Shown here one piece after another: positions 1 through 58,406 of a DNA stretch of 64,000 nucleotides. Positions within the stretch are counted from its first letter, which is position 1; each line of letters opens with the position of its first letter. Position numbers and translations under genes: made by a program. The notes below the pieces were generated by a model that saw nothing but the letters and a program-made list of their open reading frames with translations, made no database searches and was not told the DNA's origin. This DNA comes from Tahibacter soli (GTDB lineage Bacteria; Pseudomonadota; Gammaproteobacteria; Xanthomonadales; Rhodanobacteraceae), in the NCBI RefSeq assembly GCF_025717065.2, contig NZ_JAOVZO020000008.1:62001-126000 (forward strand), read 5' to 3'.

Positions 1-800
1 GCGAGATCGGCGACGAGGTCGGCCGCGCTCGCGTAGCGCCGCGCCGGATCGGGCTCGAGGCAGCGGCGGCAGATCGCGTCGAGATCGGCGTCGGGCGCGT
101 CGCCGCGCAACAGTTCGGCGAGCATCGCGCCGAGCGCGTAGACGTCGGTGCGGCGATCGAGCCGGCGCGCCGCGTCGTGCTGCTCCGGCGCCATGTACGC
201 CGGCGTGCCCGACACGTCGCCGCCGTCGACGCCGCCGTCGGCGTCCATCGCGCGCGCGAGGCCGAAATCGGCGACGAGCGGCTCGCCGCGTTCGTCGAAC
301 AGCACGTTGCCGGGCTTGAGATCGAGGTGCAGCAGGCCCAGGCGATGCGCGTAGTCGACCGCCGAGCCGATCGTGACCATCAGCGCGATCGCCTCGTCGC
401 GTTCGACGCGTCGCTCGTCGAGCCGCTGCGCAAGCGTCGCGCCGGCCAGCATCGGCATCGAAAAATAGTGCAACCCTTCAACGACATCGACCTCGTACAC
501 CGGCACGATGTTCGGATGGTTGAGCCGCGCGGCGGCGCGCGCTTCGGCGACGAACCGCGCGACCGCCGCGGCGTCGTTCGCGCCGCCGACGACGAACTTC
601 AGCGCGACGTCGCGCGCGAGGCTCGCCTGGCGCGCGCGAAACACCACGCCCATGCCGCCGCGACCGAGGCGTTCGACGAGTTCGTAGTCGTCGAAGCGAC
701 GATCTTCGGGATCGTCGCTCGCGAGCGCCGCTTCGAGCTGCGCGGCGACGTCGTCGTGCGCGGCCACGCCGAGCTTGGCGGCGGCCGCCCAGTCGGTCAT
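1..800 (-). CDS. Serine/threonine protein kinase, N-terminal part (runs off the left edge)
   Basis: The minus-strand frame starting at 800 is open to the window edge, so only the first ~266 residues are visible. They contain a Hanks-type kinase domain: the glycine-rich loop LGRGGMGVVFRA (about residues 45-56), the ATP-binding lysine in DVALKFVV, the catalytic loop HLDLKPGNVLF, the DFGLA metal-binding motif and the GTPAYMAPEQ activation-segment end. The catalytic loop reads HLDLKPGN, where HRDLKPEN is usual. The protein should phosphorylate Ser/Thr residues in the cytoplasm; any C-terminal sensor or membrane segment lies outside the window. The ATG overlaps the stop of the upstream sigma-factor gene (ATGA), so the pair is probably translated as a coupled unit. 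A short acidic/alanine-rich leader precedes the kinase fold. Confidence 0.93.
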   Translation of the reverse strand, partial: MTDWAAAAKLGVAAHDDVAAQLEAALASDDPEDRRFDDYELVERLGRGGMGVVFRARQASLARDVALKFVVGGANDAAAVARFVAEARAAARLNHPNIVPVYEVDVVEGLHYFSMPMLAGATLAQRLDERRVERDEAIALMVTIGSAVDYAHRLGLLHLDLKPGNVLFDERGEPLVADFGLARAMDADGGVDGGDVSGTPAYMAPEQHDAARRLDRRTDVYALGAMLAELLRGDAPDADLDAICRRCLEPDPARRYASAADLVADL

Positions 801-21199: not shown

Positions 21200-21335
21200 C
21201 CCTCTCCCCCGCGCTTGCGCGGGGGAGAGGGTCGGGGTGAGGGGGAGGTGCCACGGCCTTCGTCGAGATCGAGGAAGTGCGGAGCGTCGCCCCCTCACCC
21301 TCGCCCTCTCCCCAAGCGAGCTTGGGGGCGAGGGA
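21200..21335. repeat. Hairpin-pair repeat, locus 1
   Basis: Two G/C-rich hairpins (first arm CCCTCTCCCCCGCGC, second CCCTCTCCCCAAGCGAGC) are arranged as mirror images around a ~55-bp spacer that includes the flanks GGGGTGAGGGGG and CCCCCTCACCC. It fills the gap between rsmC and ispG. Similar units lie at 30213, 40011 and 58215. Confidence 0.85.
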
Positions 21336-26839: not shown

Positions 26840-29251
26840 ATGACGGATCGTTTTCGCATCGCCATCGTCGGATCGGGACCGGGCGGCCTGTCGGCCGCCG
26901 CACGCGCCGCCGAGCGCGGCGAGTCGCACGTGCTGCTCGAGGCCGAGCCGCACCTGTCCAACACGATCTACCGCTATCAGAAGGGCAAGTTCGTCATGGA
27001 CGAGCCCGGGATCCTGCCGCTGCGTTCGCCCGTGCCGTTCAAGGCCGGCTCGCGCGAGACGATCCTCGGCGCCTGGGACGAAGCCGCCGCGCGGCTCAAG
27101 ATCAACGTGCGCCACGGCCACGAAGTGTCGGCCATCGCCAAACGCCCCGACGGCCTGTTCGAACTCAAGTGCGCGAACGGCAAGGTCGTCGAAGCGCAGT
27201 TCGTGGTGCTCGGCATCGGCCTGCAGGGCAACATCCGCAAGCTCGGCGTGCCCGGAGAAGACCTGCCGTTCGTGCAGTACCAGCTCGACGACCCCGACGA
27301 ATACGAGGGCGAAACGATCGTCGTCGTCGGCGCCGGCGACGCCGCGATCGAAAACGCGATCGCGCTCGCGAAACAGAACAACGTCGTCATCGTCAACCGC
27401 CGCGACGAGTTCGCGCGCGCCAAGAAAGGCAACGAGGCGGGCATCTTGAAGGCCATCGAAGACGGCCTGATCGAGTGCTACTACAACGCCGGTCCCGAGC
27501 GCGTCGACGCGCTCAGCGTCGGCCGCAAGAAAGGCCGCATGATCCTCGCCACCGCGAACGGCAAGGCGCAGATCCTGATCGACCGCGTCATCGCCCGCCT
27601 GGGCGCCACCGCGCCGCGCGGCTTCGTCGAGGCGTGCGGCGTCGAGTTTCCGAGCAAGGACCCGGCCTCGGTGCCGGCGATCAGCCCGCAGTACGAATCG
27701 AACGTCAAAGGCCTGTACATCGTCGGCGCGCTCGGCGGCTATCCGCTGATCAAGCAGGCGATGAACCAGGGCTACGAGGTCATCGAGTACATCCGCGGCG
27801 AAAAGGTCGAACCGGCCGACGAGCCGCTGCTCAAGGCCAAGTTCGCGCCGATGCCGGGCTTTCGCTCGGTCGACGAGGCGCTCGCGCGCGTGCAGAAGAA
27901 CGTGCGCCTGCTCTCGCACATCACGCCGCTGCAGCTGCGCGAGTTCATGCTCGACTCCGACGTGCGCACGCCGAAATCCGGCGAGACCGTTTTCGCGCGC
28001 AACGACTACACCAACAGCTTCTACTCGATCGTCGACGGCGAGGTGCAGGTGGTCGTCGACGCGGCGACCGACCAGCGCATCACGCTCAGACGCGGCGAAT
28101 TCTTCGGCGAGATGGGCCTCATCTCCGGCCGGCGCCGTTCCGCGACCGTCATCGCCGGCGCCGGCTGCGTGCTCGTGGAAACCCCGCGCCGGTCGATGAA
28201 CCGGCTGATCAATTCGGTGGCCGCGGTCAAGCGCGAGATCGACCAGGTGTTCATCCTGCGCGCGATCCAGTCGCGCTTCGTGCCGGAAGCCGACGCGGCG
28301 CAGCTCGCCGACGTCGTCGCGAGCGCGACGCTGCAGAAATTCGCGGCCGGCGACGTGCTGTTCAACGAGGGCGAAGTCGGCGACTGCCTGCATCTCGTGC
28401 GCGTCGGTTCGCTGACGATCTCGCGCAACATCGGCGGCAAGGAGGTCGTGCTGTCGTACGTGCCGGCCGGCAACTACGTCGGCGAAATGGCGCTGCTCGG
28501 CGACTCCAAGCGCTCGGCCACCGCGCGCGCCTCGATCGCGACCGAAACCGTGCGCCTGACCGGCGAGAGCTTCAAGAAGCTCGTCGCGCGGATGCCGGTG
28601 CTCAAGCTGCGGCTGCAGGCCGAGTACCGCCAGCGCGCCGCGGCGAATCTCGCGATGCAGGCGCTGCCGAGCGGCGGCGACGTGATCCAGTTCCTGCTGT
28701 CGCAGGGCGCGGGCGAAGCGACCGACATCCTGCTGATCGACGAATCGCTCTGCGTGCGCTGCGACAATTGCGAGAAGGCCTGCGCCGAAACGCACGGCGG
28801 CACCTCGCGACTCGACCGCGAGGCCGGGCCGACCTACGCGAGCGTGCACGTGCCGACGTCGTGCCGGCACTGCGAGCATCCGCACTGCATGAAGGACTGC
28901 CCGCCCGACGCGATCCGGCGCGCGCCGAACGGCGAGGTGTACATCGCCGACAACTGCATCGGCTGCGGCAACTGCGAGCGCAACTGTCCTTACGGCGTGA
29001 TCCACATGGCGTCGAAGCCGCCGAAGAAGCCGGGCCTGCTGTCCTGGCTGCTGCTGGGCCTCGGCCCCGGCCCCGGCGAAGCGCCGGTCGATCCGAAAAA
29101 GAAAAAAGAGGCAAAAGAGAAAAAAGCGGTCAAATGCGACATGTGCAAGGACGTCGGCGGCGGCCCCGCGTGCGTGCGCGCGTGCCCGACGGGCGCCGCG
29201 ATCCGCATCTCGCCGGAGGAATTCCCGGCCTATGCGCAGTCGCGGCGATAG
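26840..29251 (+). CDS. Flavoprotein fused to two cNMP-binding domains and four [4Fe-4S] clusters (protein A)
   Basis: This 803-residue protein has no signal peptide and should be cytoplasmic. Residues 1-340 form a thioredoxin-reductase-like FAD/NAD(P) module with GSGPGG at 11-16 and a second dinucleotide motif, VVVGAGDAAIEN, near 160. Residues ~370-480 and ~495-575 are two cyclic-nucleotide-binding domains; each has the phosphate-binding cassette pattern (GEFFGEMGLISGRRRSAT and GEMALLGDSKRSAT). From residue 638 there are four cysteine sets: CVRCDNCEKAC, CRHCEHPHCMKDC, CIGCGNCERNC and CDMCKDVGGGPACVRAC, 16 cysteines in all, as in NrfC/DmsB-type ferredoxin subunits. It could move electrons from NAD(P)H to a membrane partner under nucleotide control. 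It starts a six-gene co-directional cluster; the next gene begins 12 bp downstream. Confidence 0.9.
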   Translation: MTDRFRIAIVGSGPGGLSAAARAAERGESHVLLEAEPHLSNTIYRYQKGKFVMDEPGILPLRSPVPFKAGSRETILGAWDEAAARLKINVRHGHEVSAIAKRPDGLFELKCANGKVVEAQFVVLGIGLQGNIRKLGVPGEDLPFVQYQLDDPDEYEGETIVVVGAGDAAIENAIALAKQNNVVIVNRRDEFARAKKGNEAGILKAIEDGLIECYYNAGPERVDALSVGRKKGRMILATANGKAQILIDRVIARLGATAPRGFVEACGVEFPSKDPASVPAISPQYESNVKGLYIVGALGGYPLIKQAMNQGYEVIEYIRGEKVEPADEPLLKAKFAPMPGFRSVDEALARVQKNVRLLSHITPLQLREFMLDSDVRTPKSGETVFARNDYTNSFYSIVDGEVQVVVDAATDQRITLRRGEFFGEMGLISGRRRSATVIAGAGCVLVETPRRSMNRLINSVAAVKREIDQVFILRAIQSRFVPEADAAQLADVVASATLQKFAAGDVLFNEGEVGDCLHLVRVGSLTISRNIGGKEVVLSYVPAGNYVGEMALLGDSKRSATARASIATETVRLTGESFKKLVARMPVLKLRLQAEYRQRAAANLAMQALPSGGDVIQFLLSQGAGEATDILLIDESLCVRCDNCEKACAETHGGTSRLDREAGPTYASVHVPTSCRHCEHPHCMKDCPPDAIRRAPNGEVYIADNCIGCGNCERNCPYGVIHMASKPPKKPGLLSWLLLGLGPGPGEAPVDPKKKKEAKEKKAVKCDMCKDVGGGPACVRACPTGAAIRISPEEFPAYAQSRR

Positions 29252-29263
29252 GAACGTTCGCGG

Positions 29264-30175
29264 ATGAGCGCACGGCACGAGTCGATACTCAATCATGCGC
29301 GGTCGCGCTACTTCTGGGTCGCGCTCGCGCTGTCGCTCGCGTCGATCGTCGCGTACGTGTGGCACGCCCCCGACGTCGGCCCGAACGGCGGCACGTGGCT
29401 CGGCTACACGCTCGGCACGATCGCGGCGCTCCTGATCGTCTGGCTGATGCTGTTCGGCGTGCGCAAGCGCAGCTATTCCGGCGCCGGCGGCACGCTGCGC
29501 GGATGGCTTTCGGCGCACGTCTACCTCGGCACGTCGCTGATCCTGATCGCCCTGCTCCACTGCGGTTTCCAGTTCGGCTGGAACCTGCACACGTTCTGCC
29601 TCGTGCTGATGCTCGTGGTGATCTTTTCGGGGTTCTTCGGCGTGTACTCGTACCTGCGCTATCCGACCCTGATGACGCGCAACCGCGAAAGCGCGACGCG
29701 CGCGGCGATGCTCGAGGAAATCGGCGAACTCGACCAGAACGCGCTCGCGCTCGCCGACGGCATCGACCCGAAGATCCACGCGATCGTGCTGCGTTCGATC
29801 CAGAACACGCGGCTCGGCGGCGGCGTGTTCTCGCAGCTCTCCGCGCGCGACGATTCCGACGCCGCGCTCGCCTCGGTGCGCGCGGCGATCGCGGCGCGCG
29901 AGACGCAGGCGAAGGCGACGACGAATCCGCAGTCGGGGCAGACGATCTTCGCGATGGTCGATTTTCTCGCGAGCGGCGCGAACGACCGGCAGACCGAGGC
30001 GCTGCGCAAGCTGATCGACCTGCTGTCGCAGAAGAAGGCGATCGCGACGCGCGTGGCGCGCGACATTCAATACCAGGCGGTGATGGAGATCTGGCTGTAC
30101 GTGCACGTGCCGCTGTCGTTCGGGTTGCTGGCGGCGTTGATCGGGCATGTGGTTTCGGTGTTTTTCTATTGGTGA
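29264..30175 (+). CDS. Membrane di-haem cytochrome b-like protein (protein B)
   Basis: The 303-residue protein has about five transmembrane helices and a soluble loop of ~140 residues between the fourth and last. Two histidine pairs share the same spacing: H85-x13-H99 (in SAHVYLGTSLILIALLHC) and H281-x13-H295 (in VHVPLSFGLLAALIGHV). This is the arrangement of bis-histidine b haems stacked across a membrane. It probably passes electrons between the cytoplasmic protein A and periplasmic haems. The short distance (12 bp) to the preceding stop argues for one operon. The overall family was not recognised; ferric-reductase-like or cytochrome b561-like are alternatives. Confidence 0.75.
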   Translation: MSARHESILNHARSRYFWVALALSLASIVAYVWHAPDVGPNGGTWLGYTLGTIAALLIVWLMLFGVRKRSYSGAGGTLRGWLSAHVYLGTSLILIALLHCGFQFGWNLHTFCLVLMLVVIFSGFFGVYSYLRYPTLMTRNRESATRAAMLEEIGELDQNALALADGIDPKIHAIVLRSIQNTRLGGGVFSQLSARDDSDAALASVRAAIAARETQAKATTNPQSGQTIFAMVDFLASGANDRQTEALRKLIDLLSQKKAIATRVARDIQYQAVMEIWLYVHVPLSFGLLAALIGHVVSVFFYW

Positions 30176-30212
30176 TGGAATGAAGATCGCGCTGACGTTT
30201 CTTTGCTCAAAG

Positions 30213-30347
30213 CCCTCTCCTCCAAGCTCGCTTGGGGGAGAGGGTTGGGTGAGGGGGCGACGCTCCGCACTTCCCCAACATCGAGGAAATACAAGGCGTA
30301 ACCCCCTCACCCCAACCCTCTCCCCCAAGCAAGCTTGGGGGCGAGGG
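30213..30347. repeat. Hairpin-pair repeat, locus 2 (inside the electron-transfer cluster)
   Basis: Hairpin 1 (CCCTCTCCTCCAAGC...GCTTGGGGGAGAGGG) and hairpin 2 (CCCTCTCCCCCAAGC...GCTTGGGGGCGAGGG) face each other around GTGAGGGGGCGACG, a spacer and CCCCCTCACCCC. It fills most of the 186-bp gap between genes B and C and so is transcribed if the cluster is a single operon. Confidence 0.87.
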
Positions 30348-30361
30348 AGCGGGAGCCACCC

Positions 30362-32029
30362 ATGCGCTGGCTGATCCGCCGAGTCCTCAAACAAGGCAAA
30401 GGCGCCGTCTCCTACGAAGAAGACGTGCATTTCGGCGATACGCTCACGATCGGCCGCGCCGCCGATCAGGCGATCTTCCTGTCCGACCTGCGCGCCGCGC
30501 TGAACCACGCGCGCGTCAGCGCGGAATCCGGCGGCCGCTACAAGGTCGAATCGCTGATCCTCGCCGGTATCCGCGTCAACGGCCAGCTCACCTACGGCAT
30601 CGACGTCGGCCCGGGCGCCACGATCGAGATCGCCGGCACGCGCCTCGTGCTGCTCGACCCGCCGCGCGACTTCGACGCCGCCGTCGAAATCTCGACGCTC
30701 GACAAGACCGAACAGGCCGCCGAAAAAGCCAAGCGCTCCAAACCCACCACGCTTTCGCAAACCTGGATCGGCAAGCGCGTGCCGTCATGGCTCTTGTTCG
30801 CTACGATCCTCGCGCTCGGCCTCGTGCTGCCGGCGCTGTCGCACTTCAGCGCACCGCTTGCGAAACTGCTCGCGCACTCGCCGCTGCCGACCACCCGCAG
30901 CTGGAACCCCGGCCCGCTCGACGCCGCGCACCGCTTCTTCGGCGACGACTGCAAGCAATGCCACCCGCGCGCGTTTCTCACCGTGCGCGACGAATCGTGC
31001 CTCGCCTGCCATTCGACGATCGCGGCGCACGCCGACCCCGGCGCGTTCAACCTGCCGGCGCTCGGCGAGGCGCGCTGCGCGAGCTGTCATCAGGATCATC
31101 TCGGCCCCGCCGGCATGGTGCGCACCGACCAGCGCCTGTGCGGCGACTGCCACACGAACCTGCCCGCGCGCACGCAGAACGCCAGCCGCCTCGGCGACGC
31201 GACCGACTTCGGCACGAACCATCCGCCGTTTCGCGTGCGCCTGCCCGCCTGGGACGCGAACGGCGCCTTCGCGCCGCAGGTCGCCGTGCCGGCCGCCGGC
31301 ACGCGCGAAAATTCCGGCCTGAAATTCAACCACGAAAAACACCTCAAGCCCGACCTCAACACGCCCAAAGGCAAGCAGACGCTGGTCTGCGCGAGCTGCC
31401 ACAAGCCCGACGCCGGGGGCCTGGCGATGAAGCCGATCGCGTTCGAGACGATGTGCCACGACTGCCACACGCTCGGCTTCGACACGTTCGCGCCCGACCG
31501 CGAGGTGCCGCACGCGAAGGTGGCGGAGGTGTCGTTCATGCTCGACGAGTTCTACGCGCGCCGCGCGCTCGAGGGCGGCGTGGAGGATCGCGAGGCGCCG
31601 GGCTTCGTGCAGACCCGCCGGCGTCCCGGCGATCCGCCGCTGTCGCGCCAGGAACAGACCGAAGCGCTCGCGTGGGCGCGCGACAAGGCGCGCAAGGTCG
31701 CCGACAGCGTGTTCACCGGCCGCGCCTGCGTGACGTGCCACACGGTGACGCCGCCCGCGGCCGACCGCGGCTACCGCATCGCGCCGGTGCGCGTGGCGGG
31801 CGTCTGGTACGACACCGCCCGATTCAGCCACAACAAGCATGAAACGATGTCCTGCAAGGATTGCCACGCGGCGGCGACGTCGCCGGTCGCCAGCGACCTT
31901 CTGATACCGGACATCGCCAACTGCCGCCAATGCCACGCGGGTGCGCGCGGCGGCGGCAAGGTCGCCAGCACGTGCATCGACTGCCATGCGTACCATCAGT
32001 CGACGACGCTGAAATTGAAGACGCTGTAG
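30362..32029 (+). CDS. FHA-domain, transmembrane, decahaem c-type cytochrome (protein C)
   Basis: The 555-residue protein combines three parts. Residues 1-115 look like an FHA domain (TIGRAADQAIFLSDLRAALNH, then RVNGQ); the usual Ser of the S-x2-H element is replaced by Ala, so phosphothreonine recognition may be weak or lost. Residues ~140-162 (WLLFATILALGLVLPALSHF) form one transmembrane helix. The rest holds ten CxxCH haem-binding motifs, CKQCH to CIDCH, and must be periplasmic, leaving the FHA part in the cytoplasm. The start at 30362 was chosen because a longer frame would begin inside the repeat. It probably receives electrons from protein B. Confidence 0.9.
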   Translation: MRWLIRRVLKQGKGAVSYEEDVHFGDTLTIGRAADQAIFLSDLRAALNHARVSAESGGRYKVESLILAGIRVNGQLTYGIDVGPGATIEIAGTRLVLLDPPRDFDAAVEISTLDKTEQAAEKAKRSKPTTLSQTWIGKRVPSWLLFATILALGLVLPALSHFSAPLAKLLAHSPLPTTRSWNPGPLDAAHRFFGDDCKQCHPRAFLTVRDESCLACHSTIAAHADPGAFNLPALGEARCASCHQDHLGPAGMVRTDQRLCGDCHTNLPARTQNASRLGDATDFGTNHPPFRVRLPAWDANGAFAPQVAVPAAGTRENSGLKFNHEKHLKPDLNTPKGKQTLVCASCHKPDAGGLAMKPIAFETMCHDCHTLGFDTFAPDREVPHAKVAEVSFMLDEFYARRALEGGVEDREAPGFVQTRRRPGDPPLSRQEQTEALAWARDKARKVADSVFTGRACVTCHTVTPPAADRGYRIAPVRVAGVWYDTARFSHNKHETMSCKDCHAAATSPVASDLLIPDIANCRQCHAGARGGGKVASTCIDCHAYHQSTTLKLKTL

Positions 32030-32284
32030 GAAGGTTCACGGCCCCGGTCGACGCGCCTTGCGTTATGATCGGGTTCATGGGGAGTTGCGGAAGAACGCCG
32101 CGCAAGCGGCCGGATTTCTGGGGTTTCGCAGGTTCGAGTCGTCGGTTTGCGGTTGCGTACGCCAGTTCTGCGGTCCGCTCGGCGGATCGTCCGGCCAGGC
32201 CGGAACGGGACAAGCAAGAGCACCATCCGTCGGAACGCGTGAGCCGTCGCCCGATCGTCCGGCCTTGCCGACGGAGGGGGTGCG

Positions 32285-34339
32285 ATGGGAATGTCGCGTT
32301 ATTGCGTTCTGGCCGCGTGCGTCGGCCTCGCGTTATCCGCCTGTAGCGGCGGCAGCAATTCCGGCAGTCCGGTCGGCACGTCGCCGCCTCCGCCGCAGAA
32401 CACCAGCGATTCGGGTTGCAGCGGCTTCTGCGGCAACGCCGATTCGTTTTTGACCGAAGACGACGTGCGCAAGGCGATCGCGCAGGCCGTCGCCGAGGCG
32501 CGCGCGCAAGGCAAGCCTTCGGTGATCACGGTCGTCGACCGCGTCGGCAACGTGCTCGCGGTCTACCGCATGGCCGGCGCGCCGCCGACGGTCAAGGTCA
32601 GCTCGGGGCGCAACGTCACGGGCGGGCTCGAAGGGCTCAACGTGCCGACCGAGTTTGCCGCGATCGCCAAGGCGCTGACGTCGGTGTACTTCTCGTCCGA
32701 AGGCAACGCGTTCACGTCGCGCACCGCGGGCCAGATCGCGCAGGAGCATTTCAACCCCGGCGACCGCACGGCGCCTTCGGGGCCGCTGTTCGGCGTGCAG
32801 TTTTCGCAGCTGCCGTGCTCGGACATCAGCGCGCGCTTCTCGGGCTCGGGCACGAACGCGGGGCCGCACCGCTCGCCGATCGGCCTGTCGCCCGACCCCG
32901 GCGGCGTGCCGCTGTTCAAGGCCGGCGTGCCGGTGGGCGCGATCGCAGCGTCGGGCGCCGACGATCTCTACGGCCTCGACGACAACGCCGGCGACCGCGA
33001 CCGCAATCTCGACGAATTCGTCGCGCTGGCCGGCACGTTCGGCTTCGCCGCGCCGCAGGACCGTCGCGCCGACCGCATCACCGCCGGCGGACTGAGCCTG
33101 CGTTTTACCGACGTGGAATTCAACGAGCTCGCGCGCGATCCCGCGTCCGCGCCGGCGTTCGGCTCGCTCGGCCCCGCCGACGGCGAGCTGATCAAGGTGC
33201 CCGGCTACGCCGAACCCGTGGTGCTGCGCGGCCTCGCGCTCGGCACCGTCGAATCGGGCATCCGCCCCGACACGACCGACTACCCCGGCCTCGACGCGTT
33301 CGTGCTCGACGACGGCACCGGCACGAACCGCTATCCGCCGCGCGCCGGCACCGACGGCGCCGCGGCGCTGTCGGCGAACGAAGTGCGCACGATCGTGCAG
33401 GAAGCGCTCAAGGTCGCCGCGCGCACGCGCGCGCAGGTGCGCAAGCCGCTCGGTTCGCGCGCCGGCGAAACGGTGGTGGTCGTCGACACGAACGGCGTCG
33501 TGCTCGCGCTCGCGCGCTCGCGCGACGCGCTCGTCGACGCGGTCGACGTGACGACGCAGAAGGCGCGCTCGGCCGCGTTCTTCTCGGGCACGTACGCGGC
33601 CGGCGACATCCTCGGCACCGGATCGGCCCGTTATCTCTCGGCCGCGCTGAACCTCGCCCAGCTGCGCGTCGACTTTTCCACGGTTGCACAAAGCGCGCCG
33701 AGCCAGTACGTCGCCAACCTGCGCACGTTCCTCGGTCTGCCGCAGGCCTGGGCCGACGGCCAGGTGGCCTACTCGCTGCGCACGATCGGCAATCTGTCGC
33801 GGCCGTTCTATCCCGACGGCGTGCCCGACAATCCGCCCGGACCGCTGTCGCTGCCGTTCAATCGCTGGAGTCCGTTCCAGGACGGCCTCGAACTCGATCT
33901 CGTGTACAACCAGATCGCGGCGCACGTCGCGTTCTACCTCAACCAGAAAGGCCTCGCGCTGACGCTCGACGGCGCGCCGCTCGCGCCGGCGCCGACGCCG
34001 GGCAATCCGAAACCGATCGACGACGTCGGCTTCAACTGCACCGGCATACCGCGCCTGCCGAACGGCATCACGCTGTTCGGCGGCAGCTTCCCGATCTATC
34101 GCGGCGGCGTGCTCGTCGGCGGCGTCGGCGCGTCGGGCGACGGCACCGACCAGAGCGACCTCGTCGCGTTCCTCGGCCTGCACAACGCGGGCGCGGCGCT
34201 CAACGGCGCGATCGGCAACGCGCCGATACCGCTGCGCGCCGACCGCCTCGTGCCGCAGAACGTGCGCCTGGGCTACGTTCAGTGCCCGCAGTCGCCGTTC
34301 CTCAATTCGAACGAACAATACGTCTGCGAGGGCAAGTGA
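32285..34339 (+). CDS. Lipoprotein with two GlcG/HbpS-like (DUF336) haem-binding domains (protein D)
   Basis: The 684-residue protein begins with a lipoprotein signal (VGLALSACSGGS; lipidated Cys20) and a Ser/Pro-rich linker. Two GlcG/HbpS-like regions follow: the first from EDDVRKAIAQAVAEARAQG with VITVVDRVGNVLAVYRM (about residues 55-250), the second from ANEVRTIVQEALKVAAR with TVVVVDTNGVVLALAR (about 360-640). HbpS binds haem at the cell surface in streptomycetes; in this context it could hold or supply haem. It starts 255 bp after gene C, where no gene is seen, so it may also have its own promoter. Its stop is followed one base later by gene E. Confidence 0.82.
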   Translation: MGMSRYCVLAACVGLALSACSGGSNSGSPVGTSPPPPQNTSDSGCSGFCGNADSFLTEDDVRKAIAQAVAEARAQGKPSVITVVDRVGNVLAVYRMAGAPPTVKVSSGRNVTGGLEGLNVPTEFAAIAKALTSVYFSSEGNAFTSRTAGQIAQEHFNPGDRTAPSGPLFGVQFSQLPCSDISARFSGSGTNAGPHRSPIGLSPDPGGVPLFKAGVPVGAIAASGADDLYGLDDNAGDRDRNLDEFVALAGTFGFAAPQDRRADRITAGGLSLRFTDVEFNELARDPASAPAFGSLGPADGELIKVPGYAEPVVLRGLALGTVESGIRPDTTDYPGLDAFVLDDGTGTNRYPPRAGTDGAAALSANEVRTIVQEALKVAARTRAQVRKPLGSRAGETVVVVDTNGVVLALARSRDALVDAVDVTTQKARSAAFFSGTYAAGDILGTGSARYLSAALNLAQLRVDFSTVAQSAPSQYVANLRTFLGLPQAWADGQVAYSLRTIGNLSRPFYPDGVPDNPPGPLSLPFNRWSPFQDGLELDLVYNQIAAHVAFYLNQKGLALTLDGAPLAPAPTPGNPKPIDDVGFNCTGIPRLPNGITLFGGSFPIYRGGVLVGGVGASGDGTDQSDLVAFLGLHNAGAALNGAIGNAPIPLRADRLVPQNVRLGYVQCPQSPFLNSNEQYVCEGK

Positions 34340-34340
34340 C

Positions 34341-36155
34341 ATGCGCGGTCTTCGCTATGCCGTGATTCCCCTCGCCGTCGCCTGCGCGATCGCGTCTTCA
34401 GACGCGCGCGCGCAGAGCGCGAGCGTCGCCGCGAGCTGGCTCGAGATCGCCGGCATCGTGCCCGCGCCGACGTACGATCCGCGCGCCTCGCAGATACCGC
34501 GCCGCCGTCCGGGCCATCCGTACGAGCCGTGGGTCGACGCGCCGCCGCAGAATCCCGACGCGGTCGATCCCGCGCCGGTCGACCTCGCCGGCGAGTTCAT
34601 CCCGGTGCCCGACCGCTGGCGCATCATGGAATCGCTCGGCTTCAAGCATCCTTGGTACGACCCGTACAACCAGAACGTGCTCAAGGCCGACAAGCCGGTC
34701 GACGGCGAAGACCACTTCTTCAATCTGCAGATCGTCTCCGACACGCTCGTCGAACCGCGCAGCATACCGACGCCGGTCGCGCCGCAGTCGGGCAGCACGC
34801 CGGGCACGAACGACACGCTCGGCGACGTCAACCAGCTGATCCTCGCGCAGACGGTGATCGCCACCGCGCTGTACTACGAGGGCGATACGACGTTCAAGCC
34901 GCCCGATGTCGAATACAAGGCGACGCTCGCGTTCAACTACAACCGCGTGCGCACCGACGAGGTGCGCGCGCTGCAGGTCAACCCGCGCTTCGGCAAGGTG
35001 CGCGACGACGCGTTCGTCGGCGTGCAGGAACTCTTCGTCACGTGGGATCTGCGCAACCTCGGCACGCGCTACGACTTCGACGACCTGCGCATCGGCGTGC
35101 AGCCGTTCTCGACCGACTTCCGCGGCTTTCTGTTCCAGGACAGCCAGCCCGGCATCCGCCTGTTCGGCACGCGCGACAACAACCGCTGGCAGTACAACCT
35201 GGCACTTTTCCGCAGACTGGAAAAAGACATCAATTCCGGCCTCAACGACGTGACGATCGCGCCGCGCAAGGACGACATCTTCGTCGCGAACCTGTACCGC
35301 CAGGACTTTCCGTTCACCGGCTTCACGTCGCAGGGCATCGTGCTCTACAACCGCAACCGCGAAACCGACTCGTTCTACGATTCCAACGGCTTCATCCAGC
35401 GCCCCGCCGCGATCGGCCGCGAAGCGCCGCGCACGTATCACGTCACGTATCTCGGCTACAACGGCGACGGACACATCGGGCGGCTGAACCTCACCGCGTC
35501 GGCGTACTACGCGATCGGCCGGCAGTCGGCCGGCGTGTTCGTCGCCGAAGGCACCGACATCCGCGCGGGCTTTCTCGCGGCCGAAGCGTCGATGGACTTC
35601 GACTGGATCCGGCTGCGCGCGTCGGCCGCGTACGCGAGCGGCGACGACGATCCGTTCGACGACCGTTCGACCGGCTACGACGCCGTGTTCGAAAACCCGA
35701 TCTTCGCCGGCGCCGACACGAGCTACTGGATCCGCCAGAACGTGCCGTTGATCGGCGGCGGCGGCGTGGCGCTCGCGCAGCGCAACGCGCTCTTGCCGAA
35801 CCTGCGCCCGTCGAAGGAACAGGGGCAGTCGAATTTCGACAACCCGGGCCTGCGCCTCGTCGGCGTCGGCGCCGATTTCGACCTCACGCCGCAGTCGCGC
35901 CTCTCGGGCAACGTCAACGGCCTGTGGTTCGACAAGACGCAGATCCTCGAAACCGCGCGCAACCAGGCCGACATCGGCAAGAGCATCGGCACCGATGTCT
36001 CGGTCGCGTGGATCTGGCGACCGCTGTTCACGCAGAACGTCGTGCTGCGCCTGTCGGGTGCGGCACTCCTGCCCGGCGACGGCTTCAAGGATCTGTACGG
36101 CGACCGGCGCAACAGCTACTACACCGTGTTGGGCAACTTGATCCTGACGTACTGA
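34341..36155 (+). CDS. Outer-membrane beta-barrel protein (protein E)
   Basis: The 604-residue product has a Sec signal peptide (CAIASSDARAQS, cleavage after ARA) and no lipobox. The mature region consists of alternating hydrophobic/polar strands with aromatic girdle residues (ATLAFNYNRV, YNLALFRRLEK, GIVLYNRNRET, LTASAYYAIGR) and ends YTVLGNLILTY, with the C-terminal aromatic residue recognised by the BAM machinery. It is therefore an outer-membrane barrel, of unknown family. Size and place beside multihaem cytochromes suggest the sheath of a porin-cytochrome conduit. The gene begins one base after the stop of D and ends ten bases before F. Confidence 0.82.
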   Translation: MRGLRYAVIPLAVACAIASSDARAQSASVAASWLEIAGIVPAPTYDPRASQIPRRRPGHPYEPWVDAPPQNPDAVDPAPVDLAGEFIPVPDRWRIMESLGFKHPWYDPYNQNVLKADKPVDGEDHFFNLQIVSDTLVEPRSIPTPVAPQSGSTPGTNDTLGDVNQLILAQTVIATALYYEGDTTFKPPDVEYKATLAFNYNRVRTDEVRALQVNPRFGKVRDDAFVGVQELFVTWDLRNLGTRYDFDDLRIGVQPFSTDFRGFLFQDSQPGIRLFGTRDNNRWQYNLALFRRLEKDINSGLNDVTIAPRKDDIFVANLYRQDFPFTGFTSQGIVLYNRNRETDSFYDSNGFIQRPAAIGREAPRTYHVTYLGYNGDGHIGRLNLTASAYYAIGRQSAGVFVAEGTDIRAGFLAAEASMDFDWIRLRASAAYASGDDDPFDDRSTGYDAVFENPIFAGADTSYWIRQNVPLIGGGGVALAQRNALLPNLRPSKEQGQSNFDNPGLRLVGVGADFDLTPQSRLSGNVNGLWFDKTQILETARNQADIGKSIGTDVSVAWIWRPLFTQNVVLRLSGAALLPGDGFKDLYGDRRNSYYTVLGNLILTY

Positions 36156-36165
36156 GGGGGCGGTC

Positions 36166-39100
36166 ATGACGATCAGGACGATGCTTTTTGTCAAAATCAC
36201 TTTTGCCGCAGCGGCGCTCGCCGCGGTCGCCTGGCTGATGCCGGCGTTCGCGAGCGGCGGCCCGGAGAAAGTCGAGCGCACGTACGTCACGGCGCCGAAC
36301 GCGCCGGCGTTCCAGACGTGGGCGCAGGCCGACGCGAAATCGGCCGGCTGCGTCAGCTGCCACACCGCATCGGACCGCAAGACGATGCACGCATCCGAAG
36401 CCGTCGTGCTCGGCTGCACCGACTGCCACGGCGGCGATCCCACGGTGTTCGGCGCGGCCGGCACCGAGTCGGCCGGCAACCGCAGCGCGATGGAAAAGGC
36501 GCACGTGCTGCCGCAGTATCCCGACCGCTGGCCGTCGAGCGCGAACCCCGAGCGCAGCTACACGCATCTGACGCAGGAGTCGCCGGAGTTCACGCGCTTC
36601 ATCAACCCGGGCGACCTGCGCATCGCGCGCGAAGCCTGCGGCGCGTGCCACCTGCCGATCATCCAGCAGGCCGAGAAGAGCCTCATGGCGAACGCCGCGA
36701 TGTTCTGGGGCGCGGCGGCGTACAACAACGGCATCCTGCCGTACAAGCACTCGATCCTCGGCGAGGCGTATACGCGCGACGGCGAGCCGTCGGCCGTGAC
36801 GAACGGCGCGCCGAACGACGCGGCGATGGACGATCGCGGCATCCTGCCGAAGATCAGCCCGATGCCCGCGTGGGAAACCGTGCCGCCGGCCGACGTGTTC
36901 CGCGTGTTCGAGCGCGGCGGCCGCAACATCTCGAACCTGTTTCCGGAAATCGCCGTGCCGAGCGAAACCGGCTCGATCCAGCGTCTGGAAGAGCCGGGCC
37001 GCCCGGACCTCAAGCAATCCAACCGCGGCCCCGGCACCGGCAGCCGCGTGTCGATTCCGGTACTGAACATCCACAAGACGCGCTTGAACGATCCGTTCAC
37101 CTGGTTCCTCGGTACGAACGACAACCCCGGCGACTATCGCTCGTCCGGCTGCAGCGCGTGCCACGTGATCTACGCGAACGACCGCGATCCGCGGCATTCG
37201 GCGATCTACGCGAAATTCGGGAACATGGGACAAAGCCAGCAGGCCGACCCGACGATTCCGCGCAACGTCTCCGGGCACCCGATCAAGCACGAGTTCACGC
37301 GGCAGATTCCGACGAGCCAGTGCATGATCTGCCACATGCACCAGCCGAACATGTTCATCAATTCGATGCTCGGCTACACGATGTGGGACTACGAATCGGA
37401 CGCGCCGTTCATGTGGCCGGAGAAGCAGCACTACCCCGACGACATCGAAATGCGCAAGACGCTCGACCGCAACCCCGAAGAAGCCGCGATCCGCGGCAAG
37501 TGGCGGGACGTGGAATTCTTAAAAGACGTCTCGCTGATGAATCCGCAGCTGAAAGACACGCAGTTCGCCGACTACCACGGCCACGGCTGGAACTTCCGCG
37601 CGATCTTCTCGCGCGACCGCAAGGGCAACCTGCTCGACGCGAAGCAGGAAAAGATCGACGACACCGATCCGGACAAGTGGAAAAAAGCCGTGCACATGTC
37701 GTCGATCCACGTCGACGTCGGCATGCAGTGCGTCGACTGCCACTTCGCGCAGGACGCCCACGGCAACGGCTATCTCAAGGCCGAGGTCATGGGCGCGGTC
37801 GAAATCCAGTGCCAGGACTGCCACGGCACGGTCGACGCGCTGCCGACGTTGAAGACGTCCGGTCCGAACGCGTCGAAATACGGCAAGGATCTTCTCCTGA
37901 TCCGGAACCCGGACGGCAAGAAGCGCTTCGAATGGGTCGGCGACGCGCTGATCCAGCGCTCGGCCGTGACGCCGGGCCTGGAATGGACCATGAGTCTGAC
38001 CAAGGACGTGTCGGACCCGGCGTCGCCGCGCTACAACGAAAAGGCCACGCGCGCGCACGCGATGTCGCGCGACACGGCGAGCCAGAAGTTCGGCGCCGAC
38101 GTGCCGCTCGGCGAGCGCGCGCACGGCGAAGACAAGATGCTGTGCTACACCTGCCACACGTCGTGGACGACGAGCTGCGGCGGCTGTCATCTGCCGATCC
38201 AGGCGAACTGGAAGACCGAGCGGCACAAGTACGAAGGCGGCTTCACGCGCAACTTCGCGACGTACAACCCGCAGGTGGCGCGCGACGACATGTTCTTCCT
38301 CGGCGTGCACGGCGGCATCAAGGACCACAAGATCGCACCGGTACGCTCGTCGTCGGCGCTCGTGCTGTCGTCGACGAACATCAACCGCGAACGCATCTAC
38401 ATCCAGCAGCCGCCGATCGCCGCCTCGGGCTATTCGTCGCAGGCGTTCGCGCCGCACTACCCGCACACCGAGCGCAAGACCGAAACGAAAACCTGCACCG
38501 ACTGCCACCTCTCGGCGCAGAACGACAACAACGCGATCCTCGCGCAGACGCTCCTGCTCGGCACGCGCTTCATCGATTTCATCGGCTTCAACGCGTGGGT
38601 CGGCGGCGACGGCGAAATCAGCGCGATCCGCGTCACCGAATGGGACGAACCGCAAGCCGTCGTCGGCAGCTATCTGCAACGCTATGCGTATCCCGACTGG
38701 TTCAAGCAGCACCAGGACCGCGGCCTGAAGCTGCCCGACGCGAGCGAGCACAAGGCGGGCAAGGCGCAATGCATCCAGCTGCGCGGCGAATACCTTTACG
38801 TCGCCGAAGGCAGCGAGGGCATGCGCGTGTACGACGTCGCGAGCGCCGGCAACAAGGGCTTCTCGCAGAAGCTCGTGACGGCGCCGTTCTCGCCGCTCGG
38901 GCAGAACACGCGCATCAAGTCCGCGAACGCGACGTGCGTCGTGCTGCCGACGACGCAGCCGGTCGCGCCGTCGCGCAGCGTCAGCGAACTGATGCAGGGC
39001 GCGAACGCCGAGCAGCCGATGCATCCGTTGTACAAGTACGCGTTCATCACCGATGCGACCGAAGGGCTGATCGCCACCGACATCGAAACGCTCGCCGACC

Positions 39101-39900
39101 TCGAACCGCGCAACAACTTCCTGAAGCGCGCGGTGACGTGGAACGAGAACGGCGTGCTCAACGGCGCGCGGCACCTGGCGATCGCCGGCACGACGTTCTA
39201 CGTCGTCGCCGACGCGGGCGTCGTCGTGCTCGATCTCGCCGATCCGGTGAAGCCGCGCTACCTCGCGACGATACCGATCGCCGGCGCGCGCGCCGCGGCG
39301 CTGCAGTTCCGCTATCTGTTCGTCACCGCGAAGGACGGCCTGCACGTCGTCGACGTGACGACGCCGGCGCAGCCGCGCGAAATCGCCGGCGCGCTCGTGC
39401 CGCTGCGCGACGCGCGCAAGCTGCATCTGGCGCGCACGTATGCCTATGTCGCCGACGGCGCCGACGGCATCGCGATCGTCGACATCACGCGGCCGGAGCG
39501 GCCGGCGCTGTATCAGCTCTACAACGCCGACGGAAAGATCAACGACGCGACCGACATCGTCGTCGGCACGACGAACGCGTCGCTGTTCGCGTACGTCGCC
39601 GACGGCAGGAACGGCCTCAAGGTGATCCAGCTCACGAGCCCCGAATCGCAGCCGAAGTTCTACGGTTTCAGCCCCGACCCGAAGCCGCAGCTGATCGCGT
39701 GGCGCGCGACGGACAAGCCGGCGCTGTCGCTGTCGCGCGGACTCGAACGCGATCGCGCGGTCGACGAAACGGGACACCAGATCGCGGTGTTCGGGCGCAT
39801 CGGTTCGCGGCCGTTCAATCAGGCCGAGATGCAGAAGCTGTATCTGCGGCCGGACGGGACGCCGTGGACGGTGGAGGACAAGCCGCAGGGACCGCGGTAG
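36166..39900 (+). CDS. Decahaem c-type cytochrome with LVIVD-repeat C-terminus (protein F)
   Basis: This 1244-residue secreted protein begins with a signal peptide (LAAVAWLMPAFASGG). Ten CxxCH motifs lie between residues 62 and ~781 (CVSCH, CTDCH, CGACH, CSACH, CMICH, CVDCH, CQDCH, CYTCH, CGGCH and CTDCH), unevenly spaced, unlike compact tetrahaem repeats. The C-terminal ~370 residues hold about five LVIVD-type blades (EYLYVAEGSEGMRVYDVAS, TYAYVADGADGIAIVDIT, LFAYVADGRNGLKVIQLT), probably a beta-propeller for protein or surface contact. It is likely the terminal, outer-facing electron carrier or a substrate reductase/oxidase of the cluster. It is the last gene before a hairpin and a repeat unit. 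Confidence 0.9.
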   Translation: MTIRTMLFVKITFAAAALAAVAWLMPAFASGGPEKVERTYVTAPNAPAFQTWAQADAKSAGCVSCHTASDRKTMHASEAVVLGCTDCHGGDPTVFGAAGTESAGNRSAMEKAHVLPQYPDRWPSSANPERSYTHLTQESPEFTRFINPGDLRIAREACGACHLPIIQQAEKSLMANAAMFWGAAAYNNGILPYKHSILGEAYTRDGEPSAVTNGAPNDAAMDDRGILPKISPMPAWETVPPADVFRVFERGGRNISNLFPEIAVPSETGSIQRLEEPGRPDLKQSNRGPGTGSRVSIPVLNIHKTRLNDPFTWFLGTNDNPGDYRSSGCSACHVIYANDRDPRHSAIYAKFGNMGQSQQADPTIPRNVSGHPIKHEFTRQIPTSQCMICHMHQPNMFINSMLGYTMWDYESDAPFMWPEKQHYPDDIEMRKTLDRNPEEAAIRGKWRDVEFLKDVSLMNPQLKDTQFADYHGHGWNFRAIFSRDRKGNLLDAKQEKIDDTDPDKWKKAVHMSSIHVDVGMQCVDCHFAQDAHGNGYLKAEVMGAVEIQCQDCHGTVDALPTLKTSGPNASKYGKDLLLIRNPDGKKRFEWVGDALIQRSAVTPGLEWTMSLTKDVSDPASPRYNEKATRAHAMSRDTASQKFGADVPLGERAHGEDKMLCYTCHTSWTTSCGGCHLPIQANWKTERHKYEGGFTRNFATYNPQVARDDMFFLGVHGGIKDHKIAPVRSSSALVLSSTNINRERIYIQQPPIAASGYSSQAFAPHYPHTERKTETKTCTDCHLSAQNDNNAILAQTLLLGTRFIDFIGFNAWVGGDGEISAIRVTEWDEPQAVVGSYLQRYAYPDWFKQHQDRGLKLPDASEHKAGKAQCIQLRGEYLYVAEGSEGMRVYDVASAGNKGFSQKLVTAPFSPLGQNTRIKSANATCVVLPTTQPVAPSRSVSELMQGANAEQPMHPLYKYAFITDATEGLIATDIETLADLEPRNNFLKRAVTWNENGVLNGARHLAIAGTTFYVVADAGVVVLDLADPVKPRYLATIPIAGARAAALQFRYLFVTAKDGLHVVDVTTPAQPREIAGALVPLRDARKLHLARTYAYVADGADGIAIVDITRPERPALYQLYNADGKINDATDIVVGTTNASLFAYVADGRNGLKVIQLTSPESQPKFYGFSPDPKPQLIAWRATDKPALSLSRGLERDRAVDETGHQIAVFGRIGSRPFNQAEMQKLYLRPDGTPWTVEDKPQGPR

Positions 39901-40010: not shown

Positions 40011-40132
40011 CGCCTCACCCCACCCTCTCCCCCAAGCAAGCTTGGAGGAGAGGGCTCAAGCACGCAGGGCCTGAACCCTCCGCTCCTTCTCCCCCAACCA
40101 CGTTGGGGGAGAAGGTTCGGATGGGGGCGACG
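40011..40132. repeat. Hairpin-pair repeat, locus 3
   Basis: Hairpin 1 is CCCTCTCCCCCAAGC...GCTTGGAGGAGAGGG (40023-40054); hairpin 2 is CTTCTCCCCCAACC...GTTGGGGGAGAAGG and ends with ATGGGGGCGACG. The spacer is shorter than at loci 1 and 2. It lies in the 265-bp gap between gene F and the convergent TonB-like gene; nothing else is seen in that gap apart from the hairpin at 39969. Confidence 0.8.
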
Positions 40133-58214: not shown

Positions 58215-58406
58215 CTCCCCTCGCCGCCCCTCTCCCCCGTGCTCGTTCGGGGGAGAGGGATTTTGCTTAAGCCCTCTCCCCCAACGCCGTTGGGGGAGAG
58301 GGTTGGGTGAGGGGGCGACGCCAAGTACTTCGTCGCACTCGACGAAGTGCACAGCGCCCTCCCCCTCACCCCGCCCCTCTCCCCCAAGCAAGCTTGAGGG
58401 AGAGGG
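58215..58406. repeat. Hairpin repeat array, locus 4 (three hairpins)
   Basis: Three hairpins of the family lie in the ~310-bp gap between the convergent OmpA-like and multicopper oxidase genes: CCCCTCTCCCCCGTGC..., CCCTCTCCCCCAACGCCGTT... and CCCTCTCCCCCAAGCAAGC.... Between them are GTGAGGGGGCGACGC and a second, mirrored flank. The array probably forms a strong structure at both transcript ends. Confidence 0.85.

Follow-up and report, generated by a model that had tools for sequence, protein, structure and literature searches.

A conserved gene set of Tahibacter soli proposed to pass electrons from NADPH to a decahaem protein under cyclic-nucleotide control

We analysed a 64,000-bp stretch of the Tahibacter soli genome (the window; G000:C8:62001-126000, within a 6.65-Mb genome) that carries six consecutive open reading frames (ORFs), A to F, all on the + strand (ORF calls and Pfam domain search; Table 1). 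The results showed that A-F are one real conserved set whose order is not a product of chance, and that a seventh gene, X, which is unlinked to A-F in this genome and lies at G000:C20, belongs to it. From the motifs and gene orders described below, we give a probability of about 0.5 to the reading that A-F and X form one electron-transfer system that would spend NADPH, pass electrons along A, B, C and X to F, and be controlled by a cyclic nucleotide. The direction of flow, the hand-over from C through X to F, the location of F, the gating and the substrate are all parts that we infer. An initial annotation of the same DNA had described six successive genes with these domains as one functional set. 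The domains were borne out by ORF coordinates, Pfam matches and CXXCH counts, and the set by the order kept in 55 of 80 loci and by co-occurrence where the genes are unlinked; the count of six was too low, since X belongs as well.

Relatives of F were collected by a pattern-based scan with one genome per species. This gave 159 loci in alpha-, beta- and gammaproteobacteria and single loci labelled Acidobacteria and Marinimicrobia, of which 80 were kept and underlie the locus counts. Labels of metagenome-assembled genomes such as Bordetella parapertussis and Klebsiella pneumoniae were judged to be mislabels, and those reading Marinimicrobia and Acidobacteria may be wrong as well. All six genes stood together in 55/80 loci; in 21 of the remaining 25, F lay at most 4.6 kb from the upstream contig end. 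Four loci (L022, L035, L037, and L039) carried D-E-F alone within the stretch examined, E was broken into two ORFs in L034, and C ran directly to E, without D, in L087. Eight loci, betaproteobacterial by label or by placement beside such loci, had the order B-C-D-E-F-X-A. In the Sphingobium plasmids and the genomes of family f38, ABC and XDEF formed separate blocks, either divergent or joined. F matched 15 plasmid records, 12 from Sphingobium and one from Sphingopyxis (53.8-60.0% identity) and two, weakly, from Gloeothece, while viral contigs gave no pattern match for F. The Sphingobium plasmids of L019 and L020 are near 1 Mb, and the neighbouring genes there carry annotations as secretion/activation proteins of the hemolysin type and as one very large hypothetical protein. 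A tree of F (61 rows, midpoint-drawn) placed the alphaproteobacteria broadly apart from the beta- and gammaproteobacteria. The nearest named relative by F was Tahibacter aquaticus (82%), and named hosts include Tahibacter, Dokdonella, Solimonas, and Alcanivorax.

Median identity to the window's proteins was 64% for F, 59% for A, 54% for E, 51% for D, 47% for B, and 35% for C, and over the 55 loci 301 of the 1244 positions of F were invariant, against 48 positions of C. F is the most conserved member, conserved like an enzyme and not like a wire, which speaks for a specific function of F and against the earlier placing of F as part of a wire. The initial annotation had left open whether the 255-bp gap between C and D divides A-C and D-F into two transcripts. 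The gap is real in the window; with each ORF start set to the first possible one, 38 of 55 C-D gaps in relatives did not exceed 60 bp. C and D mostly adjoin in relatives and ABC and DEF are apart in some, so the two-module view is right.

X encodes a multihaem cytochrome with four CXXCH motifs in 44/44 sequences and one CX4CH in 43/44, and it was found near the cluster in 44 of the 80 loci (some copies being fragments). Among 97 genomes of the window's family, C and X were present in the identical 13 genomes, and F in 12 of these. In the 13th (G154) the contig ends just after E and F was not found elsewhere in the assembly; a real absence was rejected because of this contig end. C and F were about 85 kb apart in G332 and on different contigs in G387, so the genes are retained together in genomes that do not keep them adjacent. 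Homologues that occur only separately, which would have spoken against a common function, were thus not the pattern found, though a few genomes carry ABC without F.

Table 1. Features of the gene set in the window (positions within the 64,000 bp)
Feature	Position	Strand	Description
A	26840-29251	+	803 aa; cytoplasmic; reductase domain (FAD/NAD(P)), two domains for cyclic-nucleotide binding, and a ferredoxin-like region where four groups of Cys were counted by eye
Cyclic-nucleotide domain 1 of A, phosphate-binding cassette	28106-28150	+	residues 423-437; Arg433 67/67, Glu424 65/67
Cyclic-nucleotide domain 2 of A, phosphate-binding cassette	28481-28525	+	residues 548-562; Arg558 67/67, Glu549 59/67
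B	29264-30175	+	303 aa; membrane protein, five hydrophobic segments, invariant His 85, 99, 109, 281, 295
Palindromic intergenic repeat in B-C gap, two copies	30213-30347 (30213-30244, 30316-30347)	.	incidental
C	30362-32029	+	555 aa (TTG start possible at 30335); degenerate FHA, one hydrophobic segment (144-162), ten CXXCH
FHA domain of C	30446-30631	+	residues 29-90; GR Arg 55/65, Ser at phosphothreonine-binding position 4/65
D	32285-34339	+	684 aa; lipobox-like start (by eye), HbpS-like domains
E	34341-36155	+	604 aa; presumed outer-membrane beta-barrel; remote Alginate_exp similarity over residues 223-590
F	36166-39900	+	1244 aa; exported decahaem cytochrome, C-terminal LVIVD repeats
Best LVIVD stretch of F	39406-39525	+	residues 1081-1120; Pfam

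Residue and motif counts were made on family sequences covering at least 80% of the query, and structure and profile alignments on 45 E, 31 F, and 33 C rows picked for diversity. Protein A matched the Pfam families pyridine nucleotide-disulphide oxidoreductase, cNMP_binding (two stretches), and Fer4. Its second GxGxxG is followed by N-R (N in 62/67 sequences, R in 66/67), which we take to be NADPH-like. B gave only a sub-threshold match to cytochrome b561 in Pfam. Its five His are invariant in 68/68 sequences, and two pairs among them (H85/H99 and H281/H295) are spaced by 14 positions on separate hydrophobic segments in all 68. Di-haem b membrane cytochromes typically carry two His pairs, each with a spacing of 14 positions, on two hydrophobic segments, and the aligned sequences of B have this pattern. 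In two genomes of one genus (G153 and G034) A and B are fused to one polypeptide, followed by C. C matched FHA (21.7 bits, cut-off 20.7) and cytochrome c3/c7, with ten CXXCH in 63/65 sequences and eight further His invariant in all 33 aligned sequences. C is poorly conserved overall yet keeps its haem sites and these eight His, as expected for a bis-His wire. In a search of solved structures, the FHA protein GarA was the sole match of C (E-value 0.0057).

Two signal-reading domains had been claimed at first, the cyclic-nucleotide one on A and the FHA on C, and only the former held. A phosphate-binding cassette that binds cyclic nucleotide carries a Glu and an Arg. In A the binding Arg is present in every sequence at both pockets and the Glu in most (Table 1), and the pockets look competent. 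An FHA domain that reads phosphothreonine carries the GR Arg and the Ser of an SxxH motif; such a reader role was rejected for C, which has the Arg in 55/65 sequences but the Ser in only 4/65. Without the binding Ser, the FHA domain of C is probably structural.

Genes that could make or destroy a cyclic nucleotide were linked to the cluster in some relatives. A CpdA/SpdA-like phosphoesterase adjoined C in nine loci (L019, L020, L132, L133, L135, L201, L203, L204, and L205), which are the Sphingobium plasmids and f38 genomes, and adjoined F in L094 and L099. A cyclase domain stood near the cluster in four loci (L019, L020, L131, and L088; a weak cyclase-like match of 32-37 bits in L092 was excluded from this count), joined to CHASE2 by Pfam match in L131 and L088 and by annotation in L019. 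In L131 the CHASE2-cyclase and the phosphoesterase lay in one gene run. In L088 (15103-17799), an FHA protein and then the CHASE2-cyclase were seen 3' of X. X was followed by a PP2C gene in 10/80 loci, four of which (L058, L062, L070, and L101) are close relatives, and nine of the ten also had an FHA-FHA gene; these accessory proteins showed the phosphothreonine-reading pattern in at least one domain in all nine cases. In the window's family, PP2C lay at most 1.5 kb from X in 10/13 genomes, a count weakened by genome relatedness, and was convergent with X where seen; a Ser/Thr kinase adjoined X in two others. The window's genome gave 48 Ser/Thr protein kinase family matches, one of them at window positions 93-686.

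NADP-specific glutamate dehydrogenase (GDH) was found beside or inside the cluster, at varying positions, in 10 of 110 loci (L021, L043, L053, L078, L092, L131, L132, L134, L202, and L204); the 110 are loci above 6 kb, part of them overlapping, or loci other than those of the cluster. The family call was above the NCBIfam cut-off for all three GDHs tested. In L202, X and D flank GDH, which is on their strand. In L204 one gene run reads thiamine pyrophosphate (TPP) enzyme, aldehyde dehydrogenase, GDH, A, B, C, phosphoesterase, X, D, E, and F. The TPP enzyme is acetolactate synthase-like (PRK08322, above the cut-off for L053), and enzymes of this kind can be 2-oxoglutarate decarboxylases. It was present in 15 loci: eleven Lysobacterales-like ones, which may reflect shared synteny, and L053, L093, L131, and L204. 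The L053 aldehyde dehydrogenase shares only 36% identity with those of the other loci. We used 36 flanking genes from seven loci as a control, counting recurrence in distant loci (F less than 75% identical). The three GDH queries recurred in 6, 7, and 7 distant loci and the TPP enzyme in 9, while the 32 others recurred in none (30 genes) or one (2 genes). The GDH linkage favours electron export over inward flow; of the earlier phrase that electrons run from NAD(P)H "or back", the NAD(P)H source stood and the return direction lost ground.

In the outer module, D matched HbpS-like in Pfam, F matched LVIVD and cytochrome c, and the starts of E and F are signal-peptide-like by eye. LVIVD repeats are known from cell-surface proteins. 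F has ten CXXCH in 88/90 sequences, and 13 His outside these motifs are kept in all 89 or 90 sequences with the column, apart from H532 (89/90). The window's E gave no Pfam family at an E-value of 0.01. The 45 E members matched six Pfam families at 0.1, with MtrB_PioB not among them, and E has no CXXCH in 77/78 sequences. Similarity to Alginate_exp (PF13372) was 12.8 bits for the window's E against a gathering score of 25.2, and 5 of the 45 members matched this family at 0.1, with a best value of 1.4e-6. Profile comparison of E with Alginate_exp relatives gave an hhalign probability of 77% over 303 columns. The controls, all thinner or decoy alignments, gave 0.3% for three two-partner-secretion barrels, 0.1% for a reversed template, and 0.1% for one putative TonB-dependent receptor ORF that was identified by eye and thinly aligned. 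The likeness of E to alginate-export barrels is only remote. In searches of solved structures, the E and F profiles had no match at an E-value of 1 and the single F sequence none at 0.01; a single-sequence match of E to one enzyme at 0.016 was taken as chance. A beta-strand count for E (23 candidates) was too crude for use. Four E relatives also match a bacterial SH3 domain.

Read together, these proteins suggest a path in which NAD(P)H would reduce FAD and then four [4Fe-4S] clusters within A, from which electrons would reach the inner-membrane haems of B and then C as a membrane-anchored decahaem wire. The chain up to C is proposed because of the A-B fusion, the gene order and the motifs. 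The small soluble multihaem cytochrome X probably carries electrons from C to F, and F, together with the barrel E and the lipoprotein D, would act at the outer membrane as the terminal reductase for a specific substrate. Binding of a cyclic nucleotide by A would probably turn the flow on and off or adjust it. The earlier claim of a conduit across both membranes stood as far as a set leading from NAD(P)H into the envelope; since E lacks the MtrB/PioB signature, electron passage across the outer membrane is only presumed.

That last step may not exist at all. E could instead be a channel that admits a soluble substrate to the periplasm, where F (with D) would be a reductase that receives electrons from NADPH through A-B-C-X, much like the role in selenite and tellurite reduction proposed for Geobacter ExtI and its cytochromes. 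We regard this as a possible but doubtful alternative. It would fit the missing MtrB_PioB match, the remote Alginate_exp similarity and the enzyme-like conservation of F, which is far above that of C. The ExtM model was matched by all 31 aligned F members, the window's F reaching 70.6 bits against a cut-off of 800 and so lying outside the equivalog. Loss of extI is reported to impair selenite and tellurite reduction (Jahan 2018; PMC5877670). Against it, the best ExtM stretch of F is only 52 residues long, and LVIVD repeats are known from cell-surface proteins; the abstract of PMC2447325 likewise mentions proteins of the cell surface.

A-F was compared with described systems, and by the sequence tests made it is not MtrCAB, Cyc2, PCC3 or Ext, which agrees with the initial annotation for MtrCAB, Cyc2, and PioAB. 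Like MtrCAB, MtoAB, and PioAB, it combines decahaem cytochromes with a presumed outer-membrane barrel, but E has no MtrB_PioB match, F has no MtrC/OmcA family match and the inner end is linked to NAD(P)H. C scored 27 bits, over 64 residues only, against the cut-off of 192.2 for MtrA-type (DmsE family) decahaem proteins, and the absence of CXXCH from E in 77/78 sequences separates it from the haem-barrel fusion of Cyc2. PCC3 of Gallionellaceae likewise has a porin with periplasmic and outer multihaem cytochromes, but those in the periplasm carry 21, 24 or 27 haem motifs, against 10 in C, 10 in F, and 4 in X. The Geobacter ExtHIJKLMNOPQS cluster resembles A-F in having a small porin, multihaem cytochromes and a membrane cytochrome b together; its members include porin ExtI, cytochromes ExtM/ExtN, cytochrome b ExtP, and Rieske protein ExtO (PMC5877670). 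Family searches of A-F gave no rhodanese or Rieske match, and A-F differ further by the NAD(P)H-FAD-FeS protein with its cyclic-nucleotide domains and the FHA-decahaem protein. ExtM homologues have been reported in cable bacteria (PMC11976967). At its two ends, A has matches to four-cluster ferredoxin subunits of the AegA/DmsB/NrfC type and to flavoproteins like YpdA/TrxR, but A is far below all cut-offs for these, joins the ends through two cyclic-nucleotide domains and is fused to B in one genus.

Among the literature matches listed, no account of the set was found beyond one line of a table, left without analysis there. This line counts a "Forkhead-associated protein" with 10 haem motifs in 27/87 Gallionellaceae iron oxidisers and is placed in Table 1 under "Other" (PMC10734462), with forkhead-associated named once in the main text. 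Forkhead, FHA or cyclic nucleotide is not mentioned in PMC5566968, nor in the accessible part of PMC8788666.

Several observations weigh against a single NADPH-spending, cyclic-nucleotide-controlled system. The 13 genomes with co-occurring C and X come from only three genera, and in two of these some members have none of C, F, and X. The linked signalling genes (cyclase, phosphoesterase, PP2C) vary by lineage, and the three phosphoesterases tested were far below family cut-offs. No cyclase, phosphoesterase or PP2C gene stands beside A-F in the window (X with PP2C is elsewhere in the same genome), and none of GDH, the TPP enzyme and the aldehyde dehydrogenase turned up in the window. In a sample of 299 genomes from the phylum, counting the window's own, C was present in 10 and F in 5. 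C without detected F was seen in G001 (A-B-C near a contig end), G034 and G153 (the A-B fusion with C), G154 (contig end), and G159 (weak partial C match). In G001, G034, and G153, ABC thus occurs without detected F and the inner module may serve other partners. A profile of C was present in 16/398 genomes, once partially. Six of these were inspected: four (L200, L202, L204, and L205) had D-E-F beside A-B-C, and L201 and L203 had A-B-C and the phosphoesterase with no D-E-F within the stretch, F elsewhere in those genomes not having been searched. Such genomes suggest that ABC may also function without DEF.

Electrons could also run the opposite way. In that case F would oxidise an extracellular donor, e.g., Fe(II) or Mn(II), and electrons would pass inward to NAD(P)+ or another acceptor, which we consider unlikely. 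Tahibacter, Dokdonella, Solimonas, and Alcanivorax are heterotrophs, the GDH linkage suggests an NADPH supply, and the uphill reduction of NAD(P)+ needs energy coupling, none of which is visible in B. The 10-haem protein of the Gallionellaceae iron oxidisers (PMC10734462) points towards uptake, its identity with C being presumed at most. A chain that mainly reports the redox state of the envelope to cyclic-nucleotide and phospho-signalling proteins would suit the built-in cyclic-nucleotide domains and the cyclase, phosphoesterase, PP2C, FHA-FHA, and kinase genes linked in relatives, but is very improbable given the cost of at least 24 haem motifs over C, X, and F for a sensor and the enzyme-like conservation of F.

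To our knowledge, most described trans-envelope multihaem systems are quinone-fed and belong to metal-respiring or iron-oxidising bacteria. The set described here starts at NAD(P)H, takes in electrons through a protein, A, with two conserved pockets for cyclic nucleotide, and spans alpha-, beta-, and gammaproteobacteria, including Sphingobium megaplasmids. A fuller version of export from NADPH to F can only be put forward tentatively. NADPH, in some lineages supplied by a glutamate/2-oxoglutarate pathway whose genes are linked (those for NADP-GDH, the TPP enzyme, and the aldehyde dehydrogenase), would drive electrons to F as a conserved decahaem propeller enzyme, gated by a second messenger, a cyclic nucleotide, that linked genes make and destroy; this would be a machine so far undescribed. 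If export of this kind is true, regulated reduction in the envelope would be among the traits of ordinary heterotrophic aerobes, and there would be a defined gene set for knock-outs and a highly conserved terminal protein, F, whose substrate could be looked for.

Two minor features lie next to cluster genes. In L132 (16274-17215) a TPR protein with a match to the CcmH/CycH cytochrome c biogenesis TPR domain adjoins A. In the window, the 32-bp palindromic intergenic repeat of the B-C gap recurs after F (40023-40054) and at 58375-58406, with a related copy at 21312; its four copies compare with 0 expected in shuffles.

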